In this document: in pieces, positions 20,049 through 49,987 of the stretch
Layout: each line of letters opens with the position of its first letter
How positions within the stretch are numbered: the first letter of the stretch is position 1
Source of the DNA: an uncultured Verrucomicrobia subdivision 3 bacterium
Lineage (GTDB): Bacteria > Verrucomicrobiota > Verrucomicrobiia > Limisphaerales > UBA11358
NCBI GenBank assembly: GCA_903872345.1
Contig: CAIQKM010000033.1
Coordinates: 1 to 64,000, forward strand
Reading direction: 5' to 3'
DNA: 64,000 nucleotides
Notes under the pieces: generated by a model
Database searches by the model: none
What the model was told of the DNA's origin: nothing
What the model saw: only the letters and a program-made list of their open reading frames with translations
Position numbers and translations under genes: made by a program

Positions 20049-20111
20049 CATGAATGAAACCAGCCACTGCCAATTCAATTGCCGCCCCCATGGTGGCCAT
20101 GCCGCAGGCAT

Positions 20112-20675
20112 ATGAGCGCCCCAACCAAATTACGCGCGGGAACCAGCGAGCTAACCAAGCTCAAGGTGCTCTGGCGCGATACGCTGGCCGAATCCACGCA
20201 GGCTTATTGGCGCTCGCTCTTTGTCTCGGCGGATTCCACGCAAGCGCAAATCCGGCGGGAACTCCAGGCCAAGCTGAAGATCAAGCTGGATTACGATTCG
20301 CAGTTGAACAGCTTCCGCGACTGGGTGGCGCAGCAGGATGCGATGAACCAGGAGGCCGAGGACGCGGCGGAATTCGAGCGGCGCATTCTGGCGGAGCATC
20401 CCGATTGGACGAAGGATCAGGTGCGCGAGGAATTGATCAAACGGTTTTACCAGCGCGCCCTGGCCACCGGGGATGCGGATTTGGGCCTCAAAACCATTGT
20501 GCAGGATTTGAACGTACAGAAGGTGGAACTGGACAGCCGCAAGCTGGCGCTACTGGAGAAGAAGGCGGCGGCTTACGACCGGGCGCAGGCCGCGCTGGCG
20601 GAAGCGAAACAATCCAAGGGCGGCATCACGCCGGAAACCATGTCCAAGATCGAAGCGGAATTGAAATTGCTGTGA
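20112..20675 (+). CDS. Mu gp27-like terminase small subunit (DUF3486-like)
   Basis: Start MSAPTKLRAG; helical 187-aa protein directly before the large subunit with ATGA-type overlap. Confidence 0.65.
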   Translation: MSAPTKLRAGTSELTKLKVLWRDTLAESTQAYWRSLFVSADSTQAQIRRELQAKLKIKLDYDSQLNSFRDWVAQQDAMNQEAEDAAEFERRILAEHPDWTKDQVREELIKRFYQRALATGDADLGLKTIVQDLNVQKVELDSRKLALLEKKAAAYDRAQAALAEAKQSKGGITPETMSKIEAELKLL

Positions 20676-22039
20676 GCGAATCAACCACCATTACCAAAGC
20701 CAACGTGGCCGCAACGCAGTTGCCATACTTTATGCCGTATCAGGCGGCATGGATCAACGACACCGCCCATCTGCGCATTTGCGAGAAGGGCCGGCAGATC
20801 GGTCTGAGCTATGCCGATTCCTACGACAGCGTGCGCAAGGCCGCCATGAAGGGCGGCAAAGATGTTTGGGTGATGAGCCGGGATGAAGTGCAGGCCAAAC
20901 AATATATCCTGTACTGCAAACGGTGGGCCAATGTCTTGAAATACGCCGCCGATGATTTGGGCGAACAGGTGTTCACCATGGACAACGGCAAAGCGGTCAA
21001 GATCCAGGTGCTCACGTTTGCCAGCGGTGCCAATATATATGCGCTGAGCTCCAACCCAGATGCCATCGTGGGCAAGACCGGCCATGTGAAGCTGGATGAA
21101 TTTGCCCTGCACAAGGATCAGCGCCAGCTCTTCGCCGTGGCCAAGCCGGTCATTCAATGGGGTGGCACCCTGAGCATCATCAGCACCCATCGGGGCGCGC
21201 AGACCGTGTTCAACGGATTGGTTGAAGACGTGAAGGCGCGCGGCAACAAGATGGGCTGGAGCCTGCATACCATCCCCATCCAACGCGCCGTGGCCGATGG
21301 CATCGTGGAAAAGATCAATGCCGCCACCGGCAAGCACGAGACGCGCGAAGAGTGGCTCGCTCGCCAGCGCGCCGAGTGCATTGATGAGGAGCAATGGTTG
21401 CAGGAATATTGCTGCATTCCGGCCGATGAATCCTCCGCCTTCATCACCTATGATTTGATTTCCGGTTGTGAAGATGACTCTGCGAAGCGCGATTTTGCCT
21501 ACCTGAAAGATTGCAAAAACCCGCTTTATATTGGCTACGACGTCGCCCGCACCACCGACCTGAGCGTGATAGATGTTGAGGAAAAGGTGGGGGATGTCTA
21601 TTGGGAACGGTTGCGGATTGAGATGCGCGGCAAATCCTTTGGCGAACAGGAAGCCGAGCTTTACCAGCTCATGGCCCTGCCCCAAGTGCAACGGGTGTGC
21701 ATTGACGCCACCGGGCTGGGGATGCAACTGGCGGAACGCGCCAACCAACGCTTTGGCTTTCGCGCCGAAGCCGTGCGGTTTACCAACACGGTCAAGGAGC
21801 AGCTCGCCTACCCGCTGCGCGCCGCCCATGAAGATCGCACCCTGCGCTACAACCGCGATGAAAAGCTGCGCGCCGATCTGCGCGGCATCAAAAAGGAATC
21901 CACCGCCAGCGGCAACATCCGGTTCATCGGCGAAGCGGCGGATAGCCATTGTGACCGGTTCTGGGCCAAGGCGCTGGCACTGCATGCCGGGCAGGTGGCC
22001 AAGTCCTGGGGCGGCGGACGCGGGAGCAATCTGATATGA
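20672..22039 (+). CDS. Phage terminase large subunit (Mu gp28-like)
   Basis: GTG start; LRICEKGRQIGLSYA, VKLDEFALHKD, ISTHRG, YIGYDVARTTDLSVI nuclease motif. Confidence 0.85.
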   Translation: MSESTTITKANVAATQLPYFMPYQAAWINDTAHLRICEKGRQIGLSYADSYDSVRKAAMKGGKDVWVMSRDEVQAKQYILYCKRWANVLKYAADDLGEQVFTMDNGKAVKIQVLTFASGANIYALSSNPDAIVGKTGHVKLDEFALHKDQRQLFAVAKPVIQWGGTLSIISTHRGAQTVFNGLVEDVKARGNKMGWSLHTIPIQRAVADGIVEKINAATGKHETREEWLARQRAECIDEEQWLQEYCCIPADESSAFITYDLISGCEDDSAKRDFAYLKDCKNPLYIGYDVARTTDLSVIDVEEKVGDVYWERLRIEMRGKSFGEQEAELYQLMALPQVQRVCIDATGLGMQLAERANQRFGFRAEAVRFTNTVKEQLAYPLRAAHEDRTLRYNRDEKLRADLRGIKKESTASGNIRFIGEAADSHCDRFWAKALALHAGQVAKSWGGGRGSNLI

Positions 22040-22181
22040 ACACCCTTTTTTATCCCATCCGCCCGGCCCTCCAGGAGGCCGCAGGAGCGTTTTGCGCCCC
22101 TTCGACCCGCCCCTGGGGTTTCCGACGCGGCATTCGGGCGTTTAAACGCCTCTTAAACGCATCGTGGTGGGAGGTCAAACC

Positions 22182-24482
22182 ATGAATTATCGCTCTCCCG
22201 GCATCCCTTTGGCAGAAGCCGGCGGTCTGCCTCCCATCCGTGGGGCCGCCAGCCCGGCGGAAACCGTCGTTAAGCGGGATCCTTCCGATGCCTCCATTGG
22301 CACCGGTAACTTTACCCAGGGCTTGCCGGCCTATTGGTTCGCGCGGGGCATTGGCGGGGAAGGGCGTGAAGGCATGAGCAGCCCCTACGCGCACTCCGCC
22401 TGGGTGCGTCGGGCCATCAAGTTTGTGTCCGGGCCGATCTCCTCGGTGGATTTGGTCTTTACCCAGCCGAAGGCCTCGGCGGCCATGCGCCGGCATCGGG
22501 GGCAGGGCCGGCGGCTGTTCACCAGCCGGGGCATTGTGGCCCGTAATCAGGCCGCCGAGGTGGATCTGCCCCAAATCCGCGAATGGCTCAGGGAGCCGAT
22601 GGCGGGCCTAACCTATGAGGACTTCGTGGAAGCATCCCTGGGCTGGTACAAATTGCAGGAATGTTTCTGGGTACTGGCGGATCAGGACGCCCGCGTTCCG
22701 TTCCCGGAAGTGAAGGCCAATCCCTACGCGCCCATCATCGTGGCCCGGCCGGATCGGATGCGGCCCACCGTGGCAGCCGGCAAGATTACGGCGTGGAATT
22801 TTACCGATGCCAGCGGCAAGGTCTGGGAGTTGGATCCCGAGCAGGTGGTGCGCCTCTTTGGCTGGAATCCCTATGATCCCCATCGCGGCCTGGGCGATTA
22901 TGCCAGCGCGCACTTGGCGGCGGAATCGCATCACCTCGGCAGCAAGTTCAAGCGCAACCTCACGGCGGATAATGATACCGCCCCGATCATCAGCGCCAAA
23001 AACGGCACCCCCAGCGATTTGCAGATTGAGCAAATCAAGATGAGCATCCTGGAACGTCGCCAGGCGCGGATGCGCGGCAACAGCAAGGCGCTCTTCCTGC
23101 CCGGCGAAGTGGACGTGCATGACCCCAAGATTCTCAGCGTGGACGCGGCGTTCATTGCCGGCATGTTGGAAGATCGCCACGAAATCTTCATCGCCTTCGG
23201 CGTGCCGCCCAGTTTGGCGGATGTGAAGGCCAGCTACAGCATCGGCCAGGCGAGCGATTGGTTTGCGCTTATCTTTAATACCTGCATTCCCGAGGGGAAC
23301 AAATTCTGCGCGGCCCTGGAGCAATTGATCTTCCGCCTCAGCGGCGAGCGCGTGGAAGTGGGTTTGGATTGGGATGAGCACTACGTCATGCAACAGGTGC
23401 GCAGCGAACGGATGAAAGATGCGGACAGCCTGTTCGGCAAGGGTGTGCCCATGAAGGTAATTAGCGAGTATCTGAATCTGGGCCTGCCCGAGTACGAGGA
23501 ATGGAATCAAGGCTACATCCCCATCAACCTCACGCCCGTGAGCGGCGCGGCCAATGAAGCGGCCCAGACGGTGCCAGAACCGGCCGCCGATGATTTTAAT
23601 GAGACGCCCGGCGCGGACAATGCCACGGGTGAGGCCAAGGCCGGCAGCGCCTTGATTCGCAATGCATTTTTGCAACGGTCCAATGGGGCACCGGCAACTT
23701 GCCGGAGGAAGCCGGCCAGCAAGAAACTGTGGGAGCAGCACATGAAGCTGCGCGGCGCGGCCATCAAACAATATCAGGCCAAGGTAAGCAAGCTGTTCAT
23801 GGCTTACCGCGTAACGGCCCTGAAACATTTGGATGCCGTCTATGCCGGGAAAAGCGTGGCCACCAAATCCCTGGTGGAAGTGATTTTCTCCGCCACCGGG
23901 TTTAATCGCGATCTCAAAACGAACCTCAAACCGGTCACGCAATCCGTGCTGCAACGCGCGGGCGAAGAGTTGTTCGGCGAGATCGGCCGCCCGGAAGATG
24001 CCTGGACCATGGCGCCGCCCAAGGCCGTGGCCTTTATCGAAACGCGCGACAAGCTGCTGGCCAGCGTGGGCGACACCGCGCAAAGCCAGTTGAACACCGC
24101 CTTGCAGGAAGGCATTGCCAATGGCGAGACCACCGCCGAATTGGCCGGCCGCGTGAAAGGCGTCTTTAACAATTTGCAGAACTTCGAGGCCCGCCGCATT
24201 GCCATGACGGAGACGAGCGCCGCCTACGGCTTCGCCCGGCACGAAGCGATGAGCGATGCCGGCATTGAGTTCAAGAGCTGGCTTTCCAGCCACGGGCCGA
24301 ACATGCGCGAGGCTCATGCCCAGGCGGAGTCGGATTATGCCGATGCGCCCATTCCCCTGGATGAACCCTTCATCGTGGATGGCGAAGAACTGATGTACCC
24401 CGGCGATGATGCCGGTTCCCCGGGCAACGTGATTAACTGCCACTGCATTCAACTGGCCGTGGCCAAACCCAACGACGAATAA
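22182..24482 (+). CDS. Fused portal (DUF935/Mu gp29-like) and minor head/F-like (Mu gp30) protein
   Basis: N-terminal part portal-like; C-terminal RRIAMTETSAAYGFARHEA...NVINCHCIQLAV is the phage Mu F-like region. Confidence 0.8.
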   Translation: MNYRSPGIPLAEAGGLPPIRGAASPAETVVKRDPSDASIGTGNFTQGLPAYWFARGIGGEGREGMSSPYAHSAWVRRAIKFVSGPISSVDLVFTQPKASAAMRRHRGQGRRLFTSRGIVARNQAAEVDLPQIREWLREPMAGLTYEDFVEASLGWYKLQECFWVLADQDARVPFPEVKANPYAPIIVARPDRMRPTVAAGKITAWNFTDASGKVWELDPEQVVRLFGWNPYDPHRGLGDYASAHLAAESHHLGSKFKRNLTADNDTAPIISAKNGTPSDLQIEQIKMSILERRQARMRGNSKALFLPGEVDVHDPKILSVDAAFIAGMLEDRHEIFIAFGVPPSLADVKASYSIGQASDWFALIFNTCIPEGNKFCAALEQLIFRLSGERVEVGLDWDEHYVMQQVRSERMKDADSLFGKGVPMKVISEYLNLGLPEYEEWNQGYIPINLTPVSGAANEAAQTVPEPAADDFNETPGADNATGEAKAGSALIRNAFLQRSNGAPATCRRKPASKKLWEQHMKLRGAAIKQYQAKVSKLFMAYRVTALKHLDAVYAGKSVATKSLVEVIFSATGFNRDLKTNLKPVTQSVLQRAGEELFGEIGRPEDAWTMAPPKAVAFIETRDKLLASVGDTAQSQLNTALQEGIANGETTAELAGRVKGVFNNLQNFEARRIAMTETSAAYGFARHEAMSDAGIEFKSWLSSHGPNMREAHAQAESDYADAPIPLDEPFIVDGEELMYPGDDAGSPGNVINCHCIQLAVAKPNDE

Positions 24483-24485
24483 ACT

Positions 24486-24677
24486 ATGAGCCGACCCTCT
24501 TTTAAATCTGTCATTCGCCCGGATCTGAATGTCCGCCGCGTGGGCCGTCGCACCGAAGTGTCCAAGCGCGATGGCCTCGGCAGCCTCACCTATGTGACCG
24601 AGAAAGCGAATGCGCAGACCGCCGCCTTGCTTAATTCCAAATTTCCCATGGCGGTCATCGCCCCGCCTATTCGCTAA
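24486..24677 (+). CDS. Small phage protein
   Basis: 63-aa ORF in head operon. Confidence 0.4.
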   Translation: MSRPSFKSVIRPDLNVRRVGRRTEVSKRDGLGSLTYVTEKANAQTAALLNSKFPMAVIAPPIR

Positions 24678-24678
24678 C

Positions 24679-25374
24679 ATGAAACCCAATACCATGCTCC
24701 GCCGCACGATTCACCCGCAGATCCGGGTGCTGGATGAAGCCAAGGGCCTTGTTGAATACATCGCCACCGATGAATCCGTGGATAGCTACAATGAGATCGT
24801 GCGCGCGGGCGGCGCCGACTTCTCGCGCTTTGAAAAGAACGCGCCGTTTGTGGACAGCCATGATTATTCCCAAATAGACAAGTGCCTGGGCCGCGTGGTG
24901 GATTGGAAGATCACCGGCAACCGCGTGGTGGAGACCGTGCAATGGGCCATTGATGTGGCCGAAAACAAAATGGCCCAATACGGTTTTAGCATGACCAAGG
25001 CCGGCTATCTCAAAGCGGTGAGCATTGGCTTCATGCCCACCGCCTACGCCACCAAGTGGGACAGCAACCCCACGCCGTTTCAGGATGCGCTGAAGGATAT
25101 GAACCTGCCGGCCGGTACCAACGTCACCTGCGTTTACCTGGCCTGGCTGCAACTGGAACTCTCCGCGTGCGTCATCGGTGCCAACGGCAATGCCGTGGCC
25201 AAAGCCTACAAGGCCGGCGTGGTGGATGATGCGTTCCTCGACTTAATTTCCGCGCAGCGCGCGCAGTCTGACACCGCCAACTTGACCGATGGTCCCGCTG
25301 CCGTCGAGTTGGCCCGGCAGCGGGCAAAAACGGCGTTTCTGGTGGAAATCCAAACCAAAATTAAAACGTTATGA
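24679..25374 (+). CDS. HK97-type prohead protease
   Basis: PFVDSHDYSQIDKCLGRVVDWKI and KAVSIGFMP motifs. Confidence 0.8.
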   Translation: MKPNTMLRRTIHPQIRVLDEAKGLVEYIATDESVDSYNEIVRAGGADFSRFEKNAPFVDSHDYSQIDKCLGRVVDWKITGNRVVETVQWAIDVAENKMAQYGFSMTKAGYLKAVSIGFMPTAYATKWDSNPTPFQDALKDMNLPAGTNVTCVYLAWLQLELSACVIGANGNAVAKAYKAGVVDDAFLDLISAQRAQSDTANLTDGPAAVELARQRAKTAFLVEIQTKIKTL

Positions 25375-26753
25375 TGAAATTCCGTAATATCTTGCTCGCC
25401 CCGGATTCCGCCGCCGGCGTGCTCCCCGAAGCCGATTTCCAGCGCAAAGTGCTGGGTGGAGTCGAAACCCTGACCAAAGCTCAGGAAAAACAACAGACCG
25501 ACCTCGCCAAGGTGATGGGCGATCTGGACCGCGCTGACAAAGAGGTGAAAGCCGCTTTAGAAGACCTCACCAAAGTCAAGAACCAGTCCAACGCCTCTTA
25601 CGAGGACGTGCTGAAACGCATGGAGAAGGTGCAACGCCAGGTGACGTTGAACGCCAATTCCAGCTTCCGCAATCCCATCCAGCGGGCGCTGGCGGATGAA
25701 GAATTCCGCACGCGCATGAACGCCACGGCGCGCTACATGTTCGCCCTGCAAACCAAATCCAAGTGCGATCCGGCCTACATCAAGCTGGTCGAAGAGGGCA
25801 GCGCCCAAGCCAAAGCCATCACCGGCGTGGATTCCGGCCTCGGCCAGGCCACCGTGCCCACCGACACGTTCAATACGATCTATGATCTGTTGCTCGAATA
25901 CGGCGATTACTCCACGCTGGGCACCACCCGCGTGGGTGCGCGCACCAATGTGCTGCCCGTGGCCACGGCCCGCCCGCAGTTCTACTGGATTGGTTCGCAA
26001 TCCACCCTGGCGGAAGGTTCCGCGATCACGGCCGGTGCCTTCGGTGGTTCGCAGGTGCTGCTCATCATCAACACCCTCGCGGTGCTGATGTATGCCGCGC
26101 GCGAATTGTTGCAGGATTCCACCATTGATCTCGCGCCGTACATCACGCGCCAGTTGGTGCAGAGCATCGCTTGGGGTATGGATACGGCCACCTTCATCGG
26201 CACCGGCAACCAGGACACCACCAACGGCGGTTACGTGGGCATCTTCAATGCCGCGCTGGCCAATACCAACCTGGGCGTGAGCGCCGGGGCCGGTCGCACC
26301 CAGGTGAGCAAGTTGTTGGTGGATGACTTCGTCCAGGCGCAACTCACCGTGAGCGCGCAGGTGCTCCGCAAAAAGCCCATGTGGTGGGCGCACCCCCAGA
26401 TGATGGCGCGCATCGCCCTCATCAAAGACGGTCTCGGCCGCCCGATCTTCCAGACGTGGCAGGAAGTGCCCAACCCCGGATCCATCGGCAGCATCCTCGG
26501 TTTCCCCGTGCATCCCACCGCCATCGCGCCGAACACGGATGGCAACAGCCAGCCCGTGATCGTCTTTGGCGACCCGGATGGGCAGGAAAACGGCATTCGC
26601 GTGGATCTGGAGCTCGCCACCAGCGAAGACATCGGTTTCCCGCAGAACTTGGTGGCTTACCGCGCCCTGCTGCGCGCGGGCTGTAAAATTCTCACCACGG
26701 CGGGTTCTACCACCCTCAAACCCTTTGCCGTGCTCAGCACGGCCGCCGCCTAA
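25371..26753 (+). CDS. HK97-type major capsid protein
   Basis: Directly follows protease; N-terminal coiled-coil delta-like domain; PTDTFNTIYDLLLEYGDYS..., IGTGNQDTTNGGYVGIF, GSILGFPVHPT. Confidence 0.85.
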   Translation: MMKFRNILLAPDSAAGVLPEADFQRKVLGGVETLTKAQEKQQTDLAKVMGDLDRADKEVKAALEDLTKVKNQSNASYEDVLKRMEKVQRQVTLNANSSFRNPIQRALADEEFRTRMNATARYMFALQTKSKCDPAYIKLVEEGSAQAKAITGVDSGLGQATVPTDTFNTIYDLLLEYGDYSTLGTTRVGARTNVLPVATARPQFYWIGSQSTLAEGSAITAGAFGGSQVLLIINTLAVLMYAARELLQDSTIDLAPYITRQLVQSIAWGMDTATFIGTGNQDTTNGGYVGIFNAALANTNLGVSAGAGRTQVSKLLVDDFVQAQLTVSAQVLRKKPMWWAHPQMMARIALIKDGLGRPIFQTWQEVPNPGSIGSILGFPVHPTAIAPNTDGNSQPVIVFGDPDGQENGIRVDLELATSEDIGFPQNLVAYRALLRAGCKILTTAGSTTLKPFAVLSTAAA

Positions 26754-26821
26754 GCAACTGGCGGTGTGGCCCTGCGCTGCGCCGCCAACTTTTTAAAAAC
26801 AACCATTAACCAAACGTTAAA

Positions 26822-27712
26822 ATGAAATCTGAAAACGAAATCAAAGCTCTCCCGCTGGAGGATCTCCAGAAATTCGTGATTGAACTGCGCGCGGTGCCCA
26901 CCGGCGACAAGTTCTACCCCACCGCCAAAGTGTTGATCGCCTTTGCGACCGGCCTGAAAAAGTACAAGGAACCGGAGCTCGTGGAAGTGACCAACGAGGC
27001 GGATCATCCCGTGCCCGTGGACGGCAAGGAAATCGCCGCCGGTGCCACCGGCAAGGTGTACCCCTGGCAAGCTGCCGCCCTTTCCCGCTGGCTCACGCCC
27101 GTGGGCAAAGTGGCCAGCCTGCTGCTGTTTCTGTTTGCCCTGGCGTTTACGGCCGGCGCACAGGTTCAGCCGTATGTGCTGGGCAGTGCCAGCCAGTACA
27201 ACGTGGTGGCCGTAAATGGTTTTTATGCCACCACGAATCTGAACGGCCCCACCTTCACCAACGCCACCGGCGGCGGCACGGTCTATTACACGGCCACCGT
27301 CACCAACGCCACGGCCATCTACACCAATGCCAATTGGGCTTTTAACGCCTCCGGCATTTGGACGAACACGCCCACCTACAGCACCAACAACCTGATCAAT
27401 CAGCCGGGCGTGGTGGGTTTGGTGAATTATGACACGGCGAATATCCAGTTCGGCGGCGCGCTCACGGCCGCCGGCACGGGCACCAATGCCCTGGCAAATT
27501 GGGATTTTTCCAATGACGCCGTGAATTGGCAGACCAACGCCCTCGTGCAAACGCTGATCCTGAACGGCACCCAGTTTGTGACCACCAACAGCACGCTCAC
27601 GCTGTTCGGTCCGGGGTACATACGTCTGAACTCCATCAGCATCTCCAACGGCGTGCCGTTCACCAATATCTTGGTGACCGTCAGCCGCAAACCCAGCCGT
27701 ACTGGCCCTTGA
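26822..27712 (+). CDS. Phage protein with internal signal/TM segment and Thr/Asn-rich exported domain
   Basis: About 95-aa N-terminal domain, then VGKVASLLLFLFALAFTAGAQ, then TN-rich region. Confidence 0.6.
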   Translation: MKSENEIKALPLEDLQKFVIELRAVPTGDKFYPTAKVLIAFATGLKKYKEPELVEVTNEADHPVPVDGKEIAAGATGKVYPWQAAALSRWLTPVGKVASLLLFLFALAFTAGAQVQPYVLGSASQYNVVAVNGFYATTNLNGPTFTNATGGGTVYYTATVTNATAIYTNANWAFNASGIWTNTPTYSTNNLINQPGVVGLVNYDTANIQFGGALTAAGTGTNALANWDFSNDAVNWQTNALVQTLILNGTQFVTTNSTLTLFGPGYIRLNSISISNGVPFTNILVTVSRKPSRTGP

Positions 27713-34890: not shown

Positions 34891-37557
34891 ATGGCCCTCG
34901 CCGCGTTCACTCTCTTCTACAACGGCGTGGAGAAGTCTTTGGCCGATTGGGGCCTGGACGATCTGCAATTCTCGGACAACGATCTTGCGCCTGCCGTGGT
35001 GGAATTCACCGCTGCCGGCCGGGCCGTGGATGCCGCCGATCTCTTCGCTTACGGTGCCCGCGTGATCATTTACCAGAACCGCGCCAGCGCGGGCACGGCT
35101 TGGAGCGGGGGCACCTGTTGGTTCGATGGCCGCGTGGAACCGTGGGAACGCAGCGGCGCACCGGGCATGGAAGATTGCATTGGCCGGCTGGTCAACGCCT
35201 GGTGGTATTTCGAGCGCATCCAATACAAGATGCAATTCACGCGCGCCACCAGCGCCAGCACCACGGCCGTGTACACCACCAACCGCGTGGTGCTGGGCGT
35301 GGGTTACAGCGGCGTGGGTTCGGCGTGGACGACGCTGAACACGGGCCAGCAGATCGCGGCGGCCGTCAATTGGGCGATCAGCCAGGGTGCGCCGGTGGCC
35401 TTGGGTAATGTCGCGCCGTGGGCACCGGTCATCAGCGATTTTCAGAAGTGCATCAAGGTTTCGCAGGTGATCCAGAAGATGTGGCAGATCGAATCTGACT
35501 TCATCGTGGTCTGGGATTATTCCACCGTGGGCACCAATCCCAGCGCGCCGGGCGTGCCCACCATCCACTTCTTAAAAGGCTCGCAAACAAACCTTAACCC
35601 GGCCTTAAGCGCAGGGGTTAAGGCCGGCTTGCTACTCACGCCCCTCACCATCAACCTGGATGCCGGCAACTGGCTGGGCAAGGTAAAGCTCAAGCCGCGC
35701 CCGGATTGGGTTAAGAGTTATGTAGCCATCAATTACGATCAGGTGGCCAGCTTCGGCAGCAATCAATATTTGTCCATCGGTTCGGATCAATACCCCGCCG
35801 TGCTGCCGGCGGATACGGAGAGCAAATTCAACGGCGTGGATCTGTACTACGATCTGGCCGGGGCCAAAGTGGCCGTGCAAAACCAAAGCGGCAATCTCAC
35901 GACCGCGCCGTTTGACATCACCAGCCTGGCGCAATGGCAGCAATGGAAAGCGGAACTCACCGCGCCCACGGTGGTGAGCGCCGTCATCCTCACCGCCGGC
36001 ACCACGCCGGCCACCACGGCCAATCATCCCGCGCCCGCCCTGGTCACCAAGGAAGTGGACAATACCGGGGCCACCGTGGCCTACAACGCCGCTAATGCCT
36101 ACGAGCTGCTGGATGGGGCGTATTGCGATTGGATGGCCGATGCCACGCTCATGCCGGCCAACGGGTATCCGGTGATCACCGCGCAAAAGGTCAAGGCCAC
36201 CGCGTGGGTGTATCTCACCTTCAGCAACGGCACCAAAACCTACAAACAGCTTACGCGCGAGTTCACGGCCATCAGCTATAACACCTTCAACGTGGCCACG
36301 GTGCTCAATGTGGCCACGCAAACGGTCACGTCCTATGCCGAACCGCAGCCGGTGGGGCTGGCGCAGATCATGTACAACGCCTGGCGTTCGCTGGCGGTGG
36401 AAGGCAGCTTTACCACCACGGAAACCGAGCTGGGGGCCAGCGGCATCCAACTCAGCCGGGCGAACTGCCTGAACTTCACCAGCGCGGCCGTGGCGGCCCA
36501 TGCCGGCGATGGCAGCATATTGGATTGGTCCGCCGTCAACGCGCCGATCCGCCGGCTCAGCGGCAGCGCGGTGAAGGGCACCACCACCGTGGAATTTGGC
36601 GCGCCGCTGCATCTCACGGCCAACGCGCTGGTGGATCTCGTGCGCAACAGCCGCGTGCGGGTGACCAGCATTGATCTCAACTATATCTTCGGCGGCCGGC
36701 TTGCCAACGGCGGGGGCACCGTAAAGCACGCGCGCAAAACCCACGCGCACCATGCCGAACACGGGGCCGATGAACCGCAGGTGCATGTGGTGACCGGCCC
36801 GGATGCGTTAGACTCCACGCGCACCCAGGTAATGACGAGCGACAGCAGCACGGGCATTGTCACCGTTACCCAGCAGCCCACGGCGGGCGGCTCGGCCTAC
36901 ACCAGCGGCATCGTGGCCCCGGAGTTTTCCGGCGCGGGCGCGCCCGGCGCCGGCACGCTGGCGGCCAGCGCCAGCTATCTCACGGGCAATTATTATTGGG
37001 ATACGACCAACTCCGTTTTGTACCGCTGCACGACCAGCGGCAGCAATTCGTCCTCGTTGTGGACGCCGGTGGGCGGCGGGGTCGGTGGCATGGTGCAATA
37101 TTTTGCCATCACCACCTTGTACCTGCTCGATTATGTTACCGCCCTGCCGATCCTCATATCTTTCCCCAGCGGGGTGTTGACCATTACTTTTGGTTCGCCC
37201 ACGAGCATTGCCAAGCCGAACCGAATGCGCCCATCCGTGGCCAGTGAATTGATTGACGGACTAACCATCACGTACAGCAACCACACCGATGAAAACACGC
37301 GCACGGCCAGCGATGGCACGAACACGGAATTTCAGGTGGTTTTTCCCCGGTACACCACCATGCACATTTTGGGTTTCGACAGCTATCTGACCACGCCGCC
37401 CACCGGCACAGCGGCGCTGACCTTCCTGAATTCCTTGTGCGTGATTAAAGCGATGAAAATGCCCGGTGCCGGCACCGGGCTGGTGGATGCCATACCCAGC
37501 GCCATCCTTTACGAGGAAATCACCACCCGCGTTTGGGCGCGCCGCTACGCGCAATAA
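34891..37557 (+). CDS. Large distal-tail protein
   Basis: 888-aa ORF following tape measure. Confidence 0.55.
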   Translation: MALAAFTLFYNGVEKSLADWGLDDLQFSDNDLAPAVVEFTAAGRAVDAADLFAYGARVIIYQNRASAGTAWSGGTCWFDGRVEPWERSGAPGMEDCIGRLVNAWWYFERIQYKMQFTRATSASTTAVYTTNRVVLGVGYSGVGSAWTTLNTGQQIAAAVNWAISQGAPVALGNVAPWAPVISDFQKCIKVSQVIQKMWQIESDFIVVWDYSTVGTNPSAPGVPTIHFLKGSQTNLNPALSAGVKAGLLLTPLTINLDAGNWLGKVKLKPRPDWVKSYVAINYDQVASFGSNQYLSIGSDQYPAVLPADTESKFNGVDLYYDLAGAKVAVQNQSGNLTTAPFDITSLAQWQQWKAELTAPTVVSAVILTAGTTPATTANHPAPALVTKEVDNTGATVAYNAANAYELLDGAYCDWMADATLMPANGYPVITAQKVKATAWVYLTFSNGTKTYKQLTREFTAISYNTFNVATVLNVATQTVTSYAEPQPVGLAQIMYNAWRSLAVEGSFTTTETELGASGIQLSRANCLNFTSAAVAAHAGDGSILDWSAVNAPIRRLSGSAVKGTTTVEFGAPLHLTANALVDLVRNSRVRVTSIDLNYIFGGRLANGGGTVKHARKTHAHHAEHGADEPQVHVVTGPDALDSTRTQVMTSDSSTGIVTVTQQPTAGGSAYTSGIVAPEFSGAGAPGAGTLAASASYLTGNYYWDTTNSVLYRCTTSGSNSSSLWTPVGGGVGGMVQYFAITTLYLLDYVTALPILISFPSGVLTITFGSPTSIAKPNRMRPSVASELIDGLTITYSNHTDENTRTASDGTNTEFQVVFPRYTTMHILGFDSYLTTPPTGTAALTFLNSLCVIKAMKMPGAGTGLVDAIPSAILYEEITTRVWARRYAQ

Positions 37558-37559
37558 TT

Positions 37560-38849
37560 ATGGCCATCGGCTTAAAAGTCATGTGCTCCATCCAGAGCGG
37601 CAATGTTGGCGGCGGCTTGCGCGAATCGCCGGTAAAAGCCCTCAACGGAAATCAGCTTCGGCCCGTACTGCTCACGCGCATGGGGTATGCTTGCAAGGGG
37701 GTGAATGGAATTGCGGGCTACTATTCGGGGATGTATGACAACCAGGCGGTTTTGGTGGCTCCCGGCGTTTATGCCCCCTGGCCCTACGCAAAAAACGCCG
37801 TCGATGATATGAACCGGCAGTGGACGCTTTACTCCGGGTTGGTCATCAATTATTCGAATTCGCTGCCCGGAGCTTCCCCCGACAGTTTTACCTATACTTC
37901 ATCGCTGGCGGGAACTGCCCCGCAGACGAGCTATGTGCAAACCAATCCGTCCCTTTCGGCCTCGGATCATGATTGGGGCAAATCCCCGTCCAACGGTAAT
38001 TATCAATGCCAAATCACCTCGGACACCTCATGGGCGCAGCAACAATACGATCCCGTTATCCCGCCCCATGCGATCTTTGCCACCTGGAGTCTTTCGCTCA
38101 GCGGCGGGATTGACGTGGCCGGCATTTATTCTGCCGTGCATGGCGACTTCTTTGGTGCCAGCTTTCCGAGTTTGTTTACGAGCGGTTTTCAGAACATTTA
38201 TTACAAGGATTTTCCCGCCACCATCAGCGGTGCGCAACTGGCGCCCTCGCTTATCAATCCGGCGGAGTGGGATGGCTCCATCACGCTGGGCAGTCCTTAT
38301 ACCGGCGGTCCTTATTACACCGGGGGATCGACCTACACCGCCTTTGCCGGCGCGGGCACCCTGCTTTCCGGCATCGCGGCCGCCAACGGTTGGCGGATCT
38401 CCGGTTCGGCCATCGGCGGCGGCGGCAACATTACCATTTTTCGGGGCCAGGCCACTTTGGACACCACCGTGGTACAGCCGGCCGTGCCCTTTTGGATCGG
38501 CCTTTACACCGAGGCCACCTGGTCCCCGGTGAGCTTTTACGATGGCACCAAAAGCAGTCCGCAGCCGAAGGCAGCCCCGATAAAATCCATCAAACTATTT
38601 CGCATCGGCAAGCTGCCCACGGATGGCACCATCATTGCCTACGAATCATCGGGAATTTTCCAGCTTCCTTTTCCCGCGCAAACGCCCTTTCCCATTCAGG
38701 ATTTTGCCGGTTTGGGCGTCGTGGCGCGCTATTATTTTGTCGTGGTGGGTCAAGATCCGGAAAGCTGGGCGAGCCAATATGGCTACGTCTTTGATTTGAC
38801 CGCCGACAACGCCAATGTCACCGCCGATAATACCACCGTAACCCTATGA
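37560..38849 (+). CDS. Tail-associated protein
   Basis: ATG 37560 (MAIGLKVMCSIQSGN); 4-bp overlap with next gene. Confidence 0.5.
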   Translation: MAIGLKVMCSIQSGNVGGGLRESPVKALNGNQLRPVLLTRMGYACKGVNGIAGYYSGMYDNQAVLVAPGVYAPWPYAKNAVDDMNRQWTLYSGLVINYSNSLPGASPDSFTYTSSLAGTAPQTSYVQTNPSLSASDHDWGKSPSNGNYQCQITSDTSWAQQQYDPVIPPHAIFATWSLSLSGGIDVAGIYSAVHGDFFGASFPSLFTSGFQNIYYKDFPATISGAQLAPSLINPAEWDGSITLGSPYTGGPYYTGGSTYTAFAGAGTLLSGIAAANGWRISGSAIGGGGNITIFRGQATLDTTVVQPAVPFWIGLYTEATWSPVSFYDGTKSSPQPKAAPIKSIKLFRIGKLPTDGTIIAYESSGIFQLPFPAQTPFPIQDFAGLGVVARYYFVVVGQDPESWASQYGYVFDLTADNANVTADNTTVTL

Positions 38850-40027
38850 AAAAACTCCTTGCTTCCAGCCTCCTATTTTTGGCCTTGCTTGCGCCCGTTT
38901 CCGCGCCTGCGCAAATCACCAATGTCTTCATCGGCACCACCCCGAATGACGGCACCGGCGATACCCTCCCGGTGGCCTTCACCAAGCTCAACTACAACAA
39001 TGCCTACTTCGCCGCCGCCCTTGCTTCCAACACGGCCGCCATCGTGAATTTGGCCTCCGTAACCAACTTGGTTTATCAATCGCATTTGTACCCGCTGTTG
39101 GCGCCGAATCCCTTCACTTTTACCGGTTCAAATTACATCGGCCAATTCACCAACGTCATCATCTTCAATTCCGGGGGCATCGTCAGCGGGAGTGGCGGCG
39201 GATTATCGCCTGGCACCACGCTGATCACCACCAATGTCATGAGCACCAACGGGGGCACCACTTGGCAGCTCTGGCAGCCCACCGCAGGCGCGGTGCAGCT
39301 TGCCGTTTTGACCGTGGCCGGGGTGGGAGCCGTAAACGTCAACGGAACCGACCATCCCGAATTGATCGGCCGCACCAATTCCTTCTTCGGCCAGACGTGG
39401 CAATTTGCCAACCCAATCAACCCCACTGACGGGGCCAACAAAGCTTACGTGGACGCCCGCACCGGCTACCTGCCGGGCACCGTGATCCAGCTCGCGCCGG
39501 AATGGAACATGCAAGGTCAATTTACGACGACGAATTCCAGCCTGAATTTCTTTTTGAATCAGGCCGCTAGCAACGTGCTTTCCATGTCATTTGCCTACCA
39601 ATCGGCCCCCATCGCATCCATTGCCTTGGATAGCACTGGCACCAATGTGATATTGGGTGTCACCAACAGCACTCCGGCCGGCTGGCAAATCTATGTGACC
39701 ACCAACCTCCTTGGCCCCGTCTGGCTACCCTTGGCCACCAACGGCCTCACCTGGTCAACCAACAGCGGGATCATCAGTGAAACCTTCCCCATGCCTAACC
39801 AGAGCCAAGCGTTCTTCAAGGTGGCCATCCCCGGAGCGGCCAGCATCATCGCCAGCGTGCCCGTGGCAATGCCGTTCCTTAGCCTGGCTCCCTTTACCGT
39901 CACCCATTCCACCAACAGCACCATGGGCTACGGCGCGGGCCTAGTGGCCTGCGACCAGACCAATATCTACATCAGCATTGGCACCAACGCCTGGCGGCGC
40001 TTGGCCCTGGCCACAAACAGTTGGTAA
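38846..40027 (+). CDS. Tail fibre-like protein with N-terminal signal peptide
   Basis: MKKLLASSLLFLALLAPVSAPAQ then NVFIGTTPNDGTGDTLPVAFTKLNYNNAYF, a motif seen in tail fibre proteins. Confidence 0.6.
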   Translation: MKKLLASSLLFLALLAPVSAPAQITNVFIGTTPNDGTGDTLPVAFTKLNYNNAYFAAALASNTAAIVNLASVTNLVYQSHLYPLLAPNPFTFTGSNYIGQFTNVIIFNSGGIVSGSGGGLSPGTTLITTNVMSTNGGTTWQLWQPTAGAVQLAVLTVAGVGAVNVNGTDHPELIGRTNSFFGQTWQFANPINPTDGANKAYVDARTGYLPGTVIQLAPEWNMQGQFTTTNSSLNFFLNQAASNVLSMSFAYQSAPIASIALDSTGTNVILGVTNSTPAGWQIYVTTNLLGPVWLPLATNGLTWSTNSGIISETFPMPNQSQAFFKVAIPGAASIIASVPVAMPFLSLAPFTVTHSTNSTMGYGAGLVACDQTNIYISIGTNAWRRLALATNSW

Positions 40028-40133: not shown

Positions 40134-40153
40134 TACGAGCAAACGGGAAAGTT

Positions 40154-40332
40154 AGAGCGTATTAAAAAATATTGCAGCCATTCGGTTGGAGCGAGCCGGG
40201 CAGCGGCCTTTTTGGGTTTGGGCTTCGTTTCGGCTCAGTTACAGGGTTCTTTAAACCTGCGCCTTCGCCGAAGCCTCGCCCAAACCCAAAAATCCTCGCT
40301 CCGAACGGCTACACTATTTTTTTAAACGCTCT
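40154..40332. repeat. Long palindromic hairpin repeat, family 1 copy A
   Basis: AGAGCGT...ACGCTCT termini; nested stems GGGTTTGGGC/GCCCAAACCC; homologous to copy B. Confidence 0.85.
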
Positions 40333-40346
40333 GGCCCCCACCTTTG

Positions 40347-40485
40347 TCCTCCCCCCAGGAGAGGATTTCACCTTGGCGCATTTTCTGAACATTTGTCCAC
40401 CAGCCTGACCAATCCAGCGGCTTGATTCGCGAAATAGGCGGCAACCGTGAAAAGCCCTCTCCTTGGGAAGAGGGTTGGGTGAGGG
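40347..40485. repeat. Palindromic repeat family 3 copy A
   Basis: Shares CCAGGAGAGG.TTTC.CCTTGGC.CATT and GACCAATCCAGCGGCTTG.TTCGCGAAA with 46236..46393. Confidence 0.75.
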
Positions 40486-40547
40486 AGAGCTTTAAACATA
40501 CTTTTCCCTGTCCGTCGATGCATTGGGCAAAAAGATGCAGTTAATGA

Positions 40548-40613
40548 CAAGGACTTGTGGCGGCTCCAAATAAATAAACGTTTCCAAAAATATTTGAGCC
40601 TTCTTACGTCGGC
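40548..40613. repeat. Palindromic repeat family 2 copy A (partial)
   Basis: GGCGGCTCCAAATAAATAAACGTTTCCAAAAATATTTGAGCCTTCTTACGTCGGCTGCTACC. Confidence 0.65.
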
Positions 40614-40659
40614 TGCTACCCCTGAATAGACTCGATTCGCTGAACCAGCGTCACCGCGC

Positions 40660-41118
40660 TCACCACAGAAACGATTTCTGCTCGCCGATTTGCTCGGTGC
40701 CGGACCAGAGGGTCACGCGCCAGGCGACGAGGGAGCCGAAATTCTTGTAGTCATCGCCGGCGAGCGGGAGCGACGTCCAGGTGTGGAAGAAGCCGGGGGT
40801 GACGTTGGTTTCCAGCGTTTGCAGGTGCGGCGCGCCATTGGGGAGAACGCCCCGGAGTTCGGCGCGCAGGGTGAATTGGGTGCCCGCCGATTTCTTGGCG
40901 GTCCAGAGGACGTCAAAGCGGATGGCGGAAACGAGATTGGTTTGGGCGCGTAGGCGGGCCTGATAGGCATCGCGATCAAACAGACTGGGCGAGACGGCGT
41001 CGTGGCCCTTCAAGTCCAGGAGCAGCGGCAGGACCTTGATGACGCGGCCGGGGGCGTCCGCAGCGGAACCCACGGCGAGCGAGGCGAACAATACAATGGC
41101 AACAAGCAACTGGCGCAT
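40660..41118 (-). CDS. Secreted hypothetical protein
   Basis: 152 aa with signal peptide MRQLLVAIVLFASLAVGSAADA. Confidence 0.6.
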   Translation of the reverse strand: MRQLLVAIVLFASLAVGSAADAPGRVIKVLPLLLDLKGHDAVSPSLFDRDAYQARLRAQTNLVSAIRFDVLWTAKKSAGTQFTLRAELRGVLPNGAPHLQTLETNVTPGFFHTWTSLPLAGDDYKNFGSLVAWRVTLWSGTEQIGEQKSFLW

Positions 41119-41208
41119 GGGGCAACGATACCGGGAGCAGGGACAAATTCAACTGGAAACGGAGGGGGAAAACATCCCTGGGCGCAGCTTGACACCGCCC
41201 CGACGGCT

Positions 41209-41386
41209 AGAGCATATCAAGAAATACTGTAGCCGTTCGGTCAGGTGGAAATGGCAGCGGTCTTTTTGCTGGCTGGCTTCGTTTCGGCTCAGTCACAGGT
41301 CCAAGTGGACATGCTCCTTCGCCAAAGCCTTGCCAGCCAGCAAAAATCCTCGCTCCGAACGGCTACACTATTTCTTGAAATGCTCT
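41209..41386. repeat. Long palindromic hairpin repeat, family 1 copy B
   Basis: AGAGCAT...ATGCTCT termini; nested stems GCTGGCTGGC/GCCAGCCAGC. Confidence 0.85.
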
Positions 41387-41665
41387 AAATAGCTCGGCAC
41401 CACCTCACCCCGGCCATCTCTCCCCCATTTATCAATGGCGGAGAGGGTGATAGGCCGTCGTGCGAACGGTTTGCGGCATGAACTCACGGCTTATGATTTG
41501 GGGCAGTGTCGGGATGCACCCAATATCCCACAACCAACCTCGAACGCCGAACATCCGGGTACGCCCTTTAGCCGGCACGATGGGGTTCAACCACGAATGA
41601 ACAAGCCGTGGCCGCCGCGCTCGGGGGCGGGGGCGGCTTCACCGGTCGCTCGCATCCGTCGCCGC

Positions 41666-42475: not shown

Positions 42476-42555
42476 GGTAGCAGCCGACGTGAGGAGGCTC
42501 AAATACATTTGAGAACGCTCTTTTATTTATGAGCCTCCTAACGTCGGCTGCTACC
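42476..42555. repeat. Palindromic repeat family 2 copy B (complete)
   Basis: GGTAGCAGCCGACGTGAGGAGGCTCAAATA...ATTTATGAGCCTCCTAACGTCGGCTGCTACC. Confidence 0.85.
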
Positions 42556-46235: not shown

Positions 46236-46393
46236 CCGCCCTCACCCAACCCTCTCCCCCAGGAGAGGGCTTTCCCTTGGCACATTGGTTAACCTCCCGT
46301 TCACCGGTCCGACCAATCCAGCGGCTTGGTTCGCGAAAGACGCGGCAACCTGTTCTCCTTCTCCTGGGGGAGAAGGCCGGGATGAGGGCGGGC
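46236..46393. repeat. Palindromic repeat family 3 copy B
   Basis: See copy A; CCCTCACCCAACCCTCTCCCCCAGGAGAGGG...CTCCTGGGGGAGAAGGCCGGGATGAGGG. Confidence 0.75.
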
Positions 46394-46436
46394 GTCATAC
46401 CTTCATATTCCAATTTATGTCTTTAAAATATAGTCC

Positions 46437-49897: not shown

Positions 49898-49971
49898 GGA
49901 GCCGACGGGCGAAGGCTCAAAAATATAAGAACGTTTAGGAACATATTAGAGCCTCCTGACGTCGGCTCCTA
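49898..49971. repeat. Palindromic repeat family 2 copy C
   Basis: GGGGGAGCCGACGGGCGAAGGCTCAAAAATATAAGAACGTTTAGGAACATATTAGAGCCTCCTGACGTCGGCTCCTAC. Confidence 0.75.
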
Positions 49972-49987
49972 CTTCATTAACGGGGTG

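Follow-up and report, generated by a model that had tools for sequence, protein, structure and literature searches.

Several described bacterial repeats come close to the element reported here. The RUP/IS630-Spn1 system resembles it by description in being non-coding, ~100-200 bp in size, mobilised in trans and provided with IS630-like ends and a TA target; RUP differs in its host phylum, its length of 107 bp and its short terminal inverted repeats (TIRs) (PMC2229807). The Correia or NEMIS elements of Neisseria (~107-155 bp, TIRs of ~24 bp, 5′-TA ends) are, again by description, similar in their long RNA stem–loop and their empty sites, and RNase III cleavage and an IHF site have been reported as their functions (PMC2229807). 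The enterobacterial ERIC/IRU/RU-1 elements are likened to it by description through their TA ends and highly base-paired transcript, and an orientation-dependent effect on mRNA has been reported for ERIC; they differ, however, in having a 7-bp TIR, and no partner insertion sequence (IS) is named for them in the review (PMC2229807). REPINs and GTAG-tagged REPs are palindromes with GTAG in their arms and share the arrangement in inverted pairs with some relatives of our core (PMC3733652). Our element is unlike REPINs in its TA duplication, in its IS630 ends and in that GTAG is paired instead of forming an unpaired tag. A 2024 review of prokaryotic MITEs mentions neither Verrucomicrobia nor compensatory change (PMC10969869), and a literature search for the core strings returned nothing relevant. 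The element described below works in the manner of these repeats and makes up an IS630-type MITE family of its own that is new; its unusual part is a shared, covarying and strand-biased core.

Two hairpin elements in the window

The window, i.e., the whole stretch of 64,000 nucleotides analysed here, contains two hairpin repeats at 40154-40332 (copy A) and 41209-41386 (copy B), just as the original prediction had described them. An alignment of the two copies shows common blocks together with replaced inner arms which nevertheless remain complementary within each copy, so that the predicted difference between self-complementary arms is also borne out. The minimal fold of copy A has an MFE of -84.7 kcal/mol (z -8.65) and that of copy B an MFE of -93.3 kcal/mol (z -9.72), and in both cases none of 200 shuffled sequences folded as well.

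The boundaries of the elements are better set as TA + GAGC...GCTC + TA. With these limits copy A is a complete element on the plus strand at 40153-40333 (GAGC...GCTC at 40155-40331), recognised by its sequence, its fold and its match to the family, and copy B, likewise complete, extends on the same strand from 41208 to 41387 (GAGC...GCTC at 41210-41385). The TA is duplicated on both sides of copy B (41208-41209 and 41386-41387); copy A has retained the left TA (40153-40154) and its right TA has decayed to TG (40332-40333). The left TIR of copy A (40155-40183, plus strand, GAGCGTATTAAAAAATATTGCAGCCATTC) has an end pattern common to IS630 elements and pairs with the right TIR at 40303-40331; in copy B the corresponding TIRs are found by sequence and fold at 41210-41238 (GAGCATATCAAGAAATACTGTAGCCGTTC) and 41357-41385, both given on the plus strand. 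The interior forms one long interrupted hairpin with an inner core of 82 nt. A covariance model built on this core (R1) places it at 40209-40290 in copy A (104.6 bits) and at 41263-41344 in copy B (94.0 bits), both on the plus strand. A and B belong to different subfamilies and do not stem from one duplication; the copies arose by transposition. The explanation which we hold with high confidence is that both are MITEs of ~176 bp of the IS630 type (Tc1/mariner superfamily), very probably mobilised in trans and with putative selection on the fold of the core on the minus strand.

Size and distribution of the family

When the window's own genome, a draft of 6.5 Mb in 204 contigs with a completeness of 94.6%, was searched at the DNA level, it yielded ~12 full or near-full-length copies in addition to fragments, several of them at contig ends. 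The family is also present in 28 of the 117 relatives, and GTDB genomes scanned with a pattern gave matches nearly confined to MAGs of Verrucomicrobia subdivision 3 / Pedosphaera. We extracted 75 distinct full copies from Verrucomicrobiota MAGs. In the 68 distinct copies of consistent length the arms stay paired with many compensatory changes, and with this number of copies, both in the genome itself and in the wider set, the pattern seen between A and B is far beyond chance.

Like other MITEs the element is short, non-coding, multi-copy and mostly intergenic. The sites lie between predicted ORFs in 58 of 67 cases, as compared with 79% of random positions falling inside ORFs, and the neighbours are most often convergent gene pairs (20/49) and least often divergent ones (5/49); the ORFs were called mechanically and both comparisons are accordingly rough.

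Several lineages carry mini-elements of ~24-50 bp which consist of the two terminal repeats only (L222, L236, L237, L239, L240; L179-L181). These are likely deletion derivatives that have lost the hairpin. The MAG with most copies (G117) has 37 end matches, all of them full elements, truncated ends or mini-elements, and no IS was seen when we searched these matches for an autonomous copy. Its mini-elements (TAGAGCAGTTCCATAAATGCTCTA) appear to have arisen by internal deletion from one ATGCT repeat to another.

Target site and empty sites

In 72 copies both flanks were available. The base preceding AGAGC is T in 65 of them and the base following GCTCT is A in 64, with Y at -2 and R at +2. The element thus inserts at YTAR and duplicates the two bases TA. 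A four-base duplication of YTAR was rejected, as the outer bases disagree between the two sides.

Empty sites had been suggested by the original prediction as a check of mobility, and uninterrupted copies of the host repeat are indeed present in the same genome, with TA occurring once where the site is empty and twice where it is filled. The filled site of copy B and of a second locus (L002) reads ...GGAGGC-TA-[GAGC...GCTC]-TA-AATAG. The empty site at L338 reads CCCCGGAGGC-TA-AATAGCTCAGCACC, those at L345 and L346 are similar, and further empty sites of the form CCCCGGGT-TA-AATAG occur at L009, L015, most of L319-L325 and others. Besides L338, L345 and L346 the host repeat is uninterrupted in ~20 more copies, which mostly carry TTAAATAG. 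A TA target duplication with a clean empty site is expected of an IS630-type MITE, and these sites are the decisive evidence that the elements are mobile. Since copy B and L002 have their flanks in common, the most likely origin of both is a single insertion that was copied along with the host repeat.

The host repeat of ~130 bp is interrupted by copy B; its left half ends at 41209 and its right half occupies 41386-41520 on the plus strand. It represents a second repeat family of ~130-140 bp (CTTGACACTGCCCCGGGTTAAATAG...CCACCTCACCCCGGCCCTCTCCCCC), found at least at 40 places in the genome (including loci L319-L348) and partly in relatives.

Relation to IS630 insertion sequences

In relatives, IS630/Tc1-mariner insertion sequences have ends that match those of the element (TAGAGC...TGTAGC). 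A genome of the same genus (G040, locus L268) has the end TAGAGCGTTTCCATAAATCATGTAGCG beside an ORF that carries a DDE_3 domain (E = 3e-24). In another relative (G097, locus L290) a complete hairpin element at 1223-1396 abuts an IS630 of ~1 kb at a shared TA. This IS630 has inverted repeats of 27 bp with 96% identity (TAGAGCRTTTTAAATAAAGTTATAGCC), two ORFs with HTH_Tnp_IS630 and DDE_3, respectively, and the end pattern TAGAGC..TT..A..AAA...T.TAGCC; its ends and those of the adjacent MITE are similar, not identical. The match of the ends is specific, because other DDE_3 elements in the genomes of the relatives have unrelated ends.

An autonomous partner in the same genome is usual for a MITE, not required. 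We found no match to the IS630 transposase (DDE_3, PF13358) in the window's own draft genome with its completeness of 94.6%, and IS630 partners are present in relatives. As no DDE_3 gene was detected there, the partner in this organism would be extinct or lost, or else unassembled or unbinned. The IS5/IS4-type transposases of this genome were considered as partners and rejected, as their ends are unlike type 1. The solo ends at L013-L015 are fragments with no recognisable transposase nearby.

Covariation and strand bias of the core

In 24 diverse cores 90% of the cells pair, and sliding the partner lowers the pairing to at most 59%, a control which keeps relatedness but favours a structure derived from the same sequences. 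Double changes were found in 13 of the 27 core pairs as compared with 6.5 expected, and the covariation score was 0.226 as compared with 0.102 in shuffles; in neither measure did any of 500 shuffles, which ignore relatedness, reach the observed value. Pairs of the full-length element covary too (e.g., GC:32/CG:30 and GC:29/CG:20/TA:8). The covariation proposed from two copies is therefore upheld across many.

The internal loops of the hairpin are conserved as well. On the minus strand, GA lies opposite GA in the middle loop of 21 of the 24 cores, and the outer loop has GAG/GAA in 20 of 24. In the inner loop mostly GAG/TGA or GCG/TAA are found, the two sides changing together. In these conserved loops the mismatches are tandem G-A when the minus strand is read and T-C when the plus strand is read. 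Tandem G-A mismatches stack well, and in the copies examined the minus strand folds better by 3 to 19 kcal/mol.

We also counted single changes away from Watson–Crick pairs by parsimony on a tree of the 68 copies. Changes giving G-T on the minus strand (equal to A-C on the plus strand) outnumber the reverse by 73 to 38 (p = 0.001) and do so in both arms, whereas the same comparison in unpaired columns gives 114:102; the event counts are approximate, the tree being built from recombining repeats. The asymmetry is modest, and a mutational strand bias as its cause is not fully excluded. It suggests, but does not prove, that selection acts on the minus strand in single-stranded form. The original prediction of selection on a folded RNA or cruciform is thus sustained with respect to the fold, to which the covariation, the conserved loops and the wobble bias all point, and has to be narrowed with respect to the cruciform, since the strand asymmetry is better explained by one folded strand than by a symmetric cruciform. 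Likewise, the repeats are more than duplicated sequence insofar as selection on the fold is supported, but duplicated they are, by transposition.

In one subfamily (L089, L086, L121, L107) a short palindromic insert (the GGCCGATGATCGGCACCGC region) is present in the 3′ arm of the core only. The insert is uncompensated in the 5′ arm, and the subfamily has been amplified nonetheless.

The core in other elements

The R1 core was detected in 54 of the 287 genomes of the class and in a few others of the phylum. Outside the present family it sits in palindromic elements which have, as judged by eye, other types of ends (TTATTCYAATTCGCTTTCAAGATGAG..., TAGGCGGTGTAAATAAATAAAGG..., GAGCCYGTCTGAAAATT..., AGGGTCTGTGCAAAAATAA...). 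An IS with a PF01609 transposase in the window's own genome (L139: TTAGAGTGCGTCTGAAAAA) has ends resembling the third of these types (GAGCCYGTCTGAAAATT...). A search with the type-4 ends gave 270-bp MITEs and ~50-bp TIR-TIR remnants only and no IS. One interior hairpin is thus common to MITEs which apparently rely on different transposases, and either the interior may have been passed between elements or the ends may have been replaced.

In several loci two inverted cores lie ~26 bp apart between terminal repeats of other types (L208:1501-1690, L201, L193, L049, L045, L206, L197), a layout reminiscent of REPINs.

The interiors of IS630-type MITEs are generally treated as filler, and here the interior contains one of the best-conserved parts of the element, the hairpin core. 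We are not aware that a conserved covarying core common to RUP and other types of MITEs has been described. It is conceivable, although we would put the chances somewhat below even, that the 82-nt core is a functional module that acts in single-stranded, folded form (as RNA or ssDNA containing tandem sheared G-A steps), has travelled in MITEs of different transposase families across Verrucomicrobiota and is conserved for the benefit of the element independently of the transposase. Such a core might, for example, recruit a host factor or aid replication or persistence. If it is functional, the carrier genomes, the richest of which have at least a dozen copies each, with filled and empty sites, make a role of a MITE interior directly testable.

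Alternative explanations

Palindromic elements are prone to arm-to-arm correction, and the hairpin could be a by-product of MITE palindromy if template switching or gene conversion copied one arm onto the other without any selection on a folded strand. On the tree, 76 changes from one Watson–Crick pair to another are inferred on single branches and the tip branches show mostly unrepaired mismatches, as such copying would have it, and bacterial MITEs typically have long hairpins (PMC2229807). Conversion would, however, also heal the mismatches of the internal loops, which stay the same from one subfamily to another and in element types that have other ends, and conversion predicts no strand preference of the kind seen in the 73:38 ratio. 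We therefore regard an origin by arm copying as rather doubtful. The strong covariation, the conserved unpaired nucleotides and the preference for the minus strand would also suit an independent gene for a structured non-coding RNA, or a riboswitch-like element, which is not transposable and is multi-copy by chance. A gene of this kind is highly improbable in view of the TA-flanked empty sites, the IS630-like TIRs, the variable copy number and the scattered, mostly intergenic sites. In Rfam 15 no family reached the gathering score for the element; the sole match in the window was a tRNA, and the best permissive matches to the element were at chance level (E = 2.6-2.7).

Movement as a REP/BIME/REPIN-type element by a RAYT (Y1/HUH) transposase via a single-stranded hairpin would agree with the GTAG motif in both arms of the palindromes (TGTAGC) and with the inverted cores paired ~26 bp apart in some relatives (L208, L201, L193, L049), and RAYTs recognise single strands that are folded. 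The TA duplication, clean in the empty site, and the IS630 ends are, however, hallmarks of a DDE transposase, and in place of the unpaired GTAG/CGTC tag expected at the foot of a REPIN hairpin we find TGTAGC inside the paired outer stem. This route is very unlikely, and among the options raised earlier the "REP/MITE-like" one has proved correct in the form of an IS630-type MITE with TA duplication. The position of copy A next to phage genes leads to one more reading, namely an attachment site or terminator at the right end of a prophage. The phage gene cluster is real, with terminase large subunit, portal, head maturation and major head proteins (PHROGs) at 20054-27000, and copy A lies 127 bp past the last ORF on the plus strand in this region. 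The earlier statement that A abuts the right end of the prophage is nevertheless reduced to proximity to a putative end. The three large ORFs nearest to A (34891-40027) gave no PHROG or Pfam match. Copy B has no separate phage gene next to it, copies of the family are spread over numerous contigs and genomes, a related core query matched nothing in collections of phages and plasmids or in viral contigs, and no U-tract follows the hairpin, so that the chances of a prophage function are practically negligible.

Proposed mobilisation and minor observations

For the IS630-type MITE we propose that an IS630 transposase supplied in trans would recognise the ~28-bp ends TAGAGC-N2-TT-N2-(A)A-N-AA-N3-T-N-TAGC, excise the element and join it to a TA, as suggested by the identity of the ends, the target duplication and the empty sites. 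Selection would keep the shape of the 82-nt core by acting on one folded strand, the minus strand in the window, and this strand, either as a transcript or as ssDNA during replication, may help the element to persist or to move.

In one locus (L153, minus strand, near position 1500) what by eye appears to be a TPP riboswitch has a truncated terminal repeat directly upstream. The right flank of copy A (40348-40510) is repeated within the window at 46251-46411 with 73% identity over 163 bp, and more repeated pieces of this kind are found in the window near 42476-42555 and 49914-49972.
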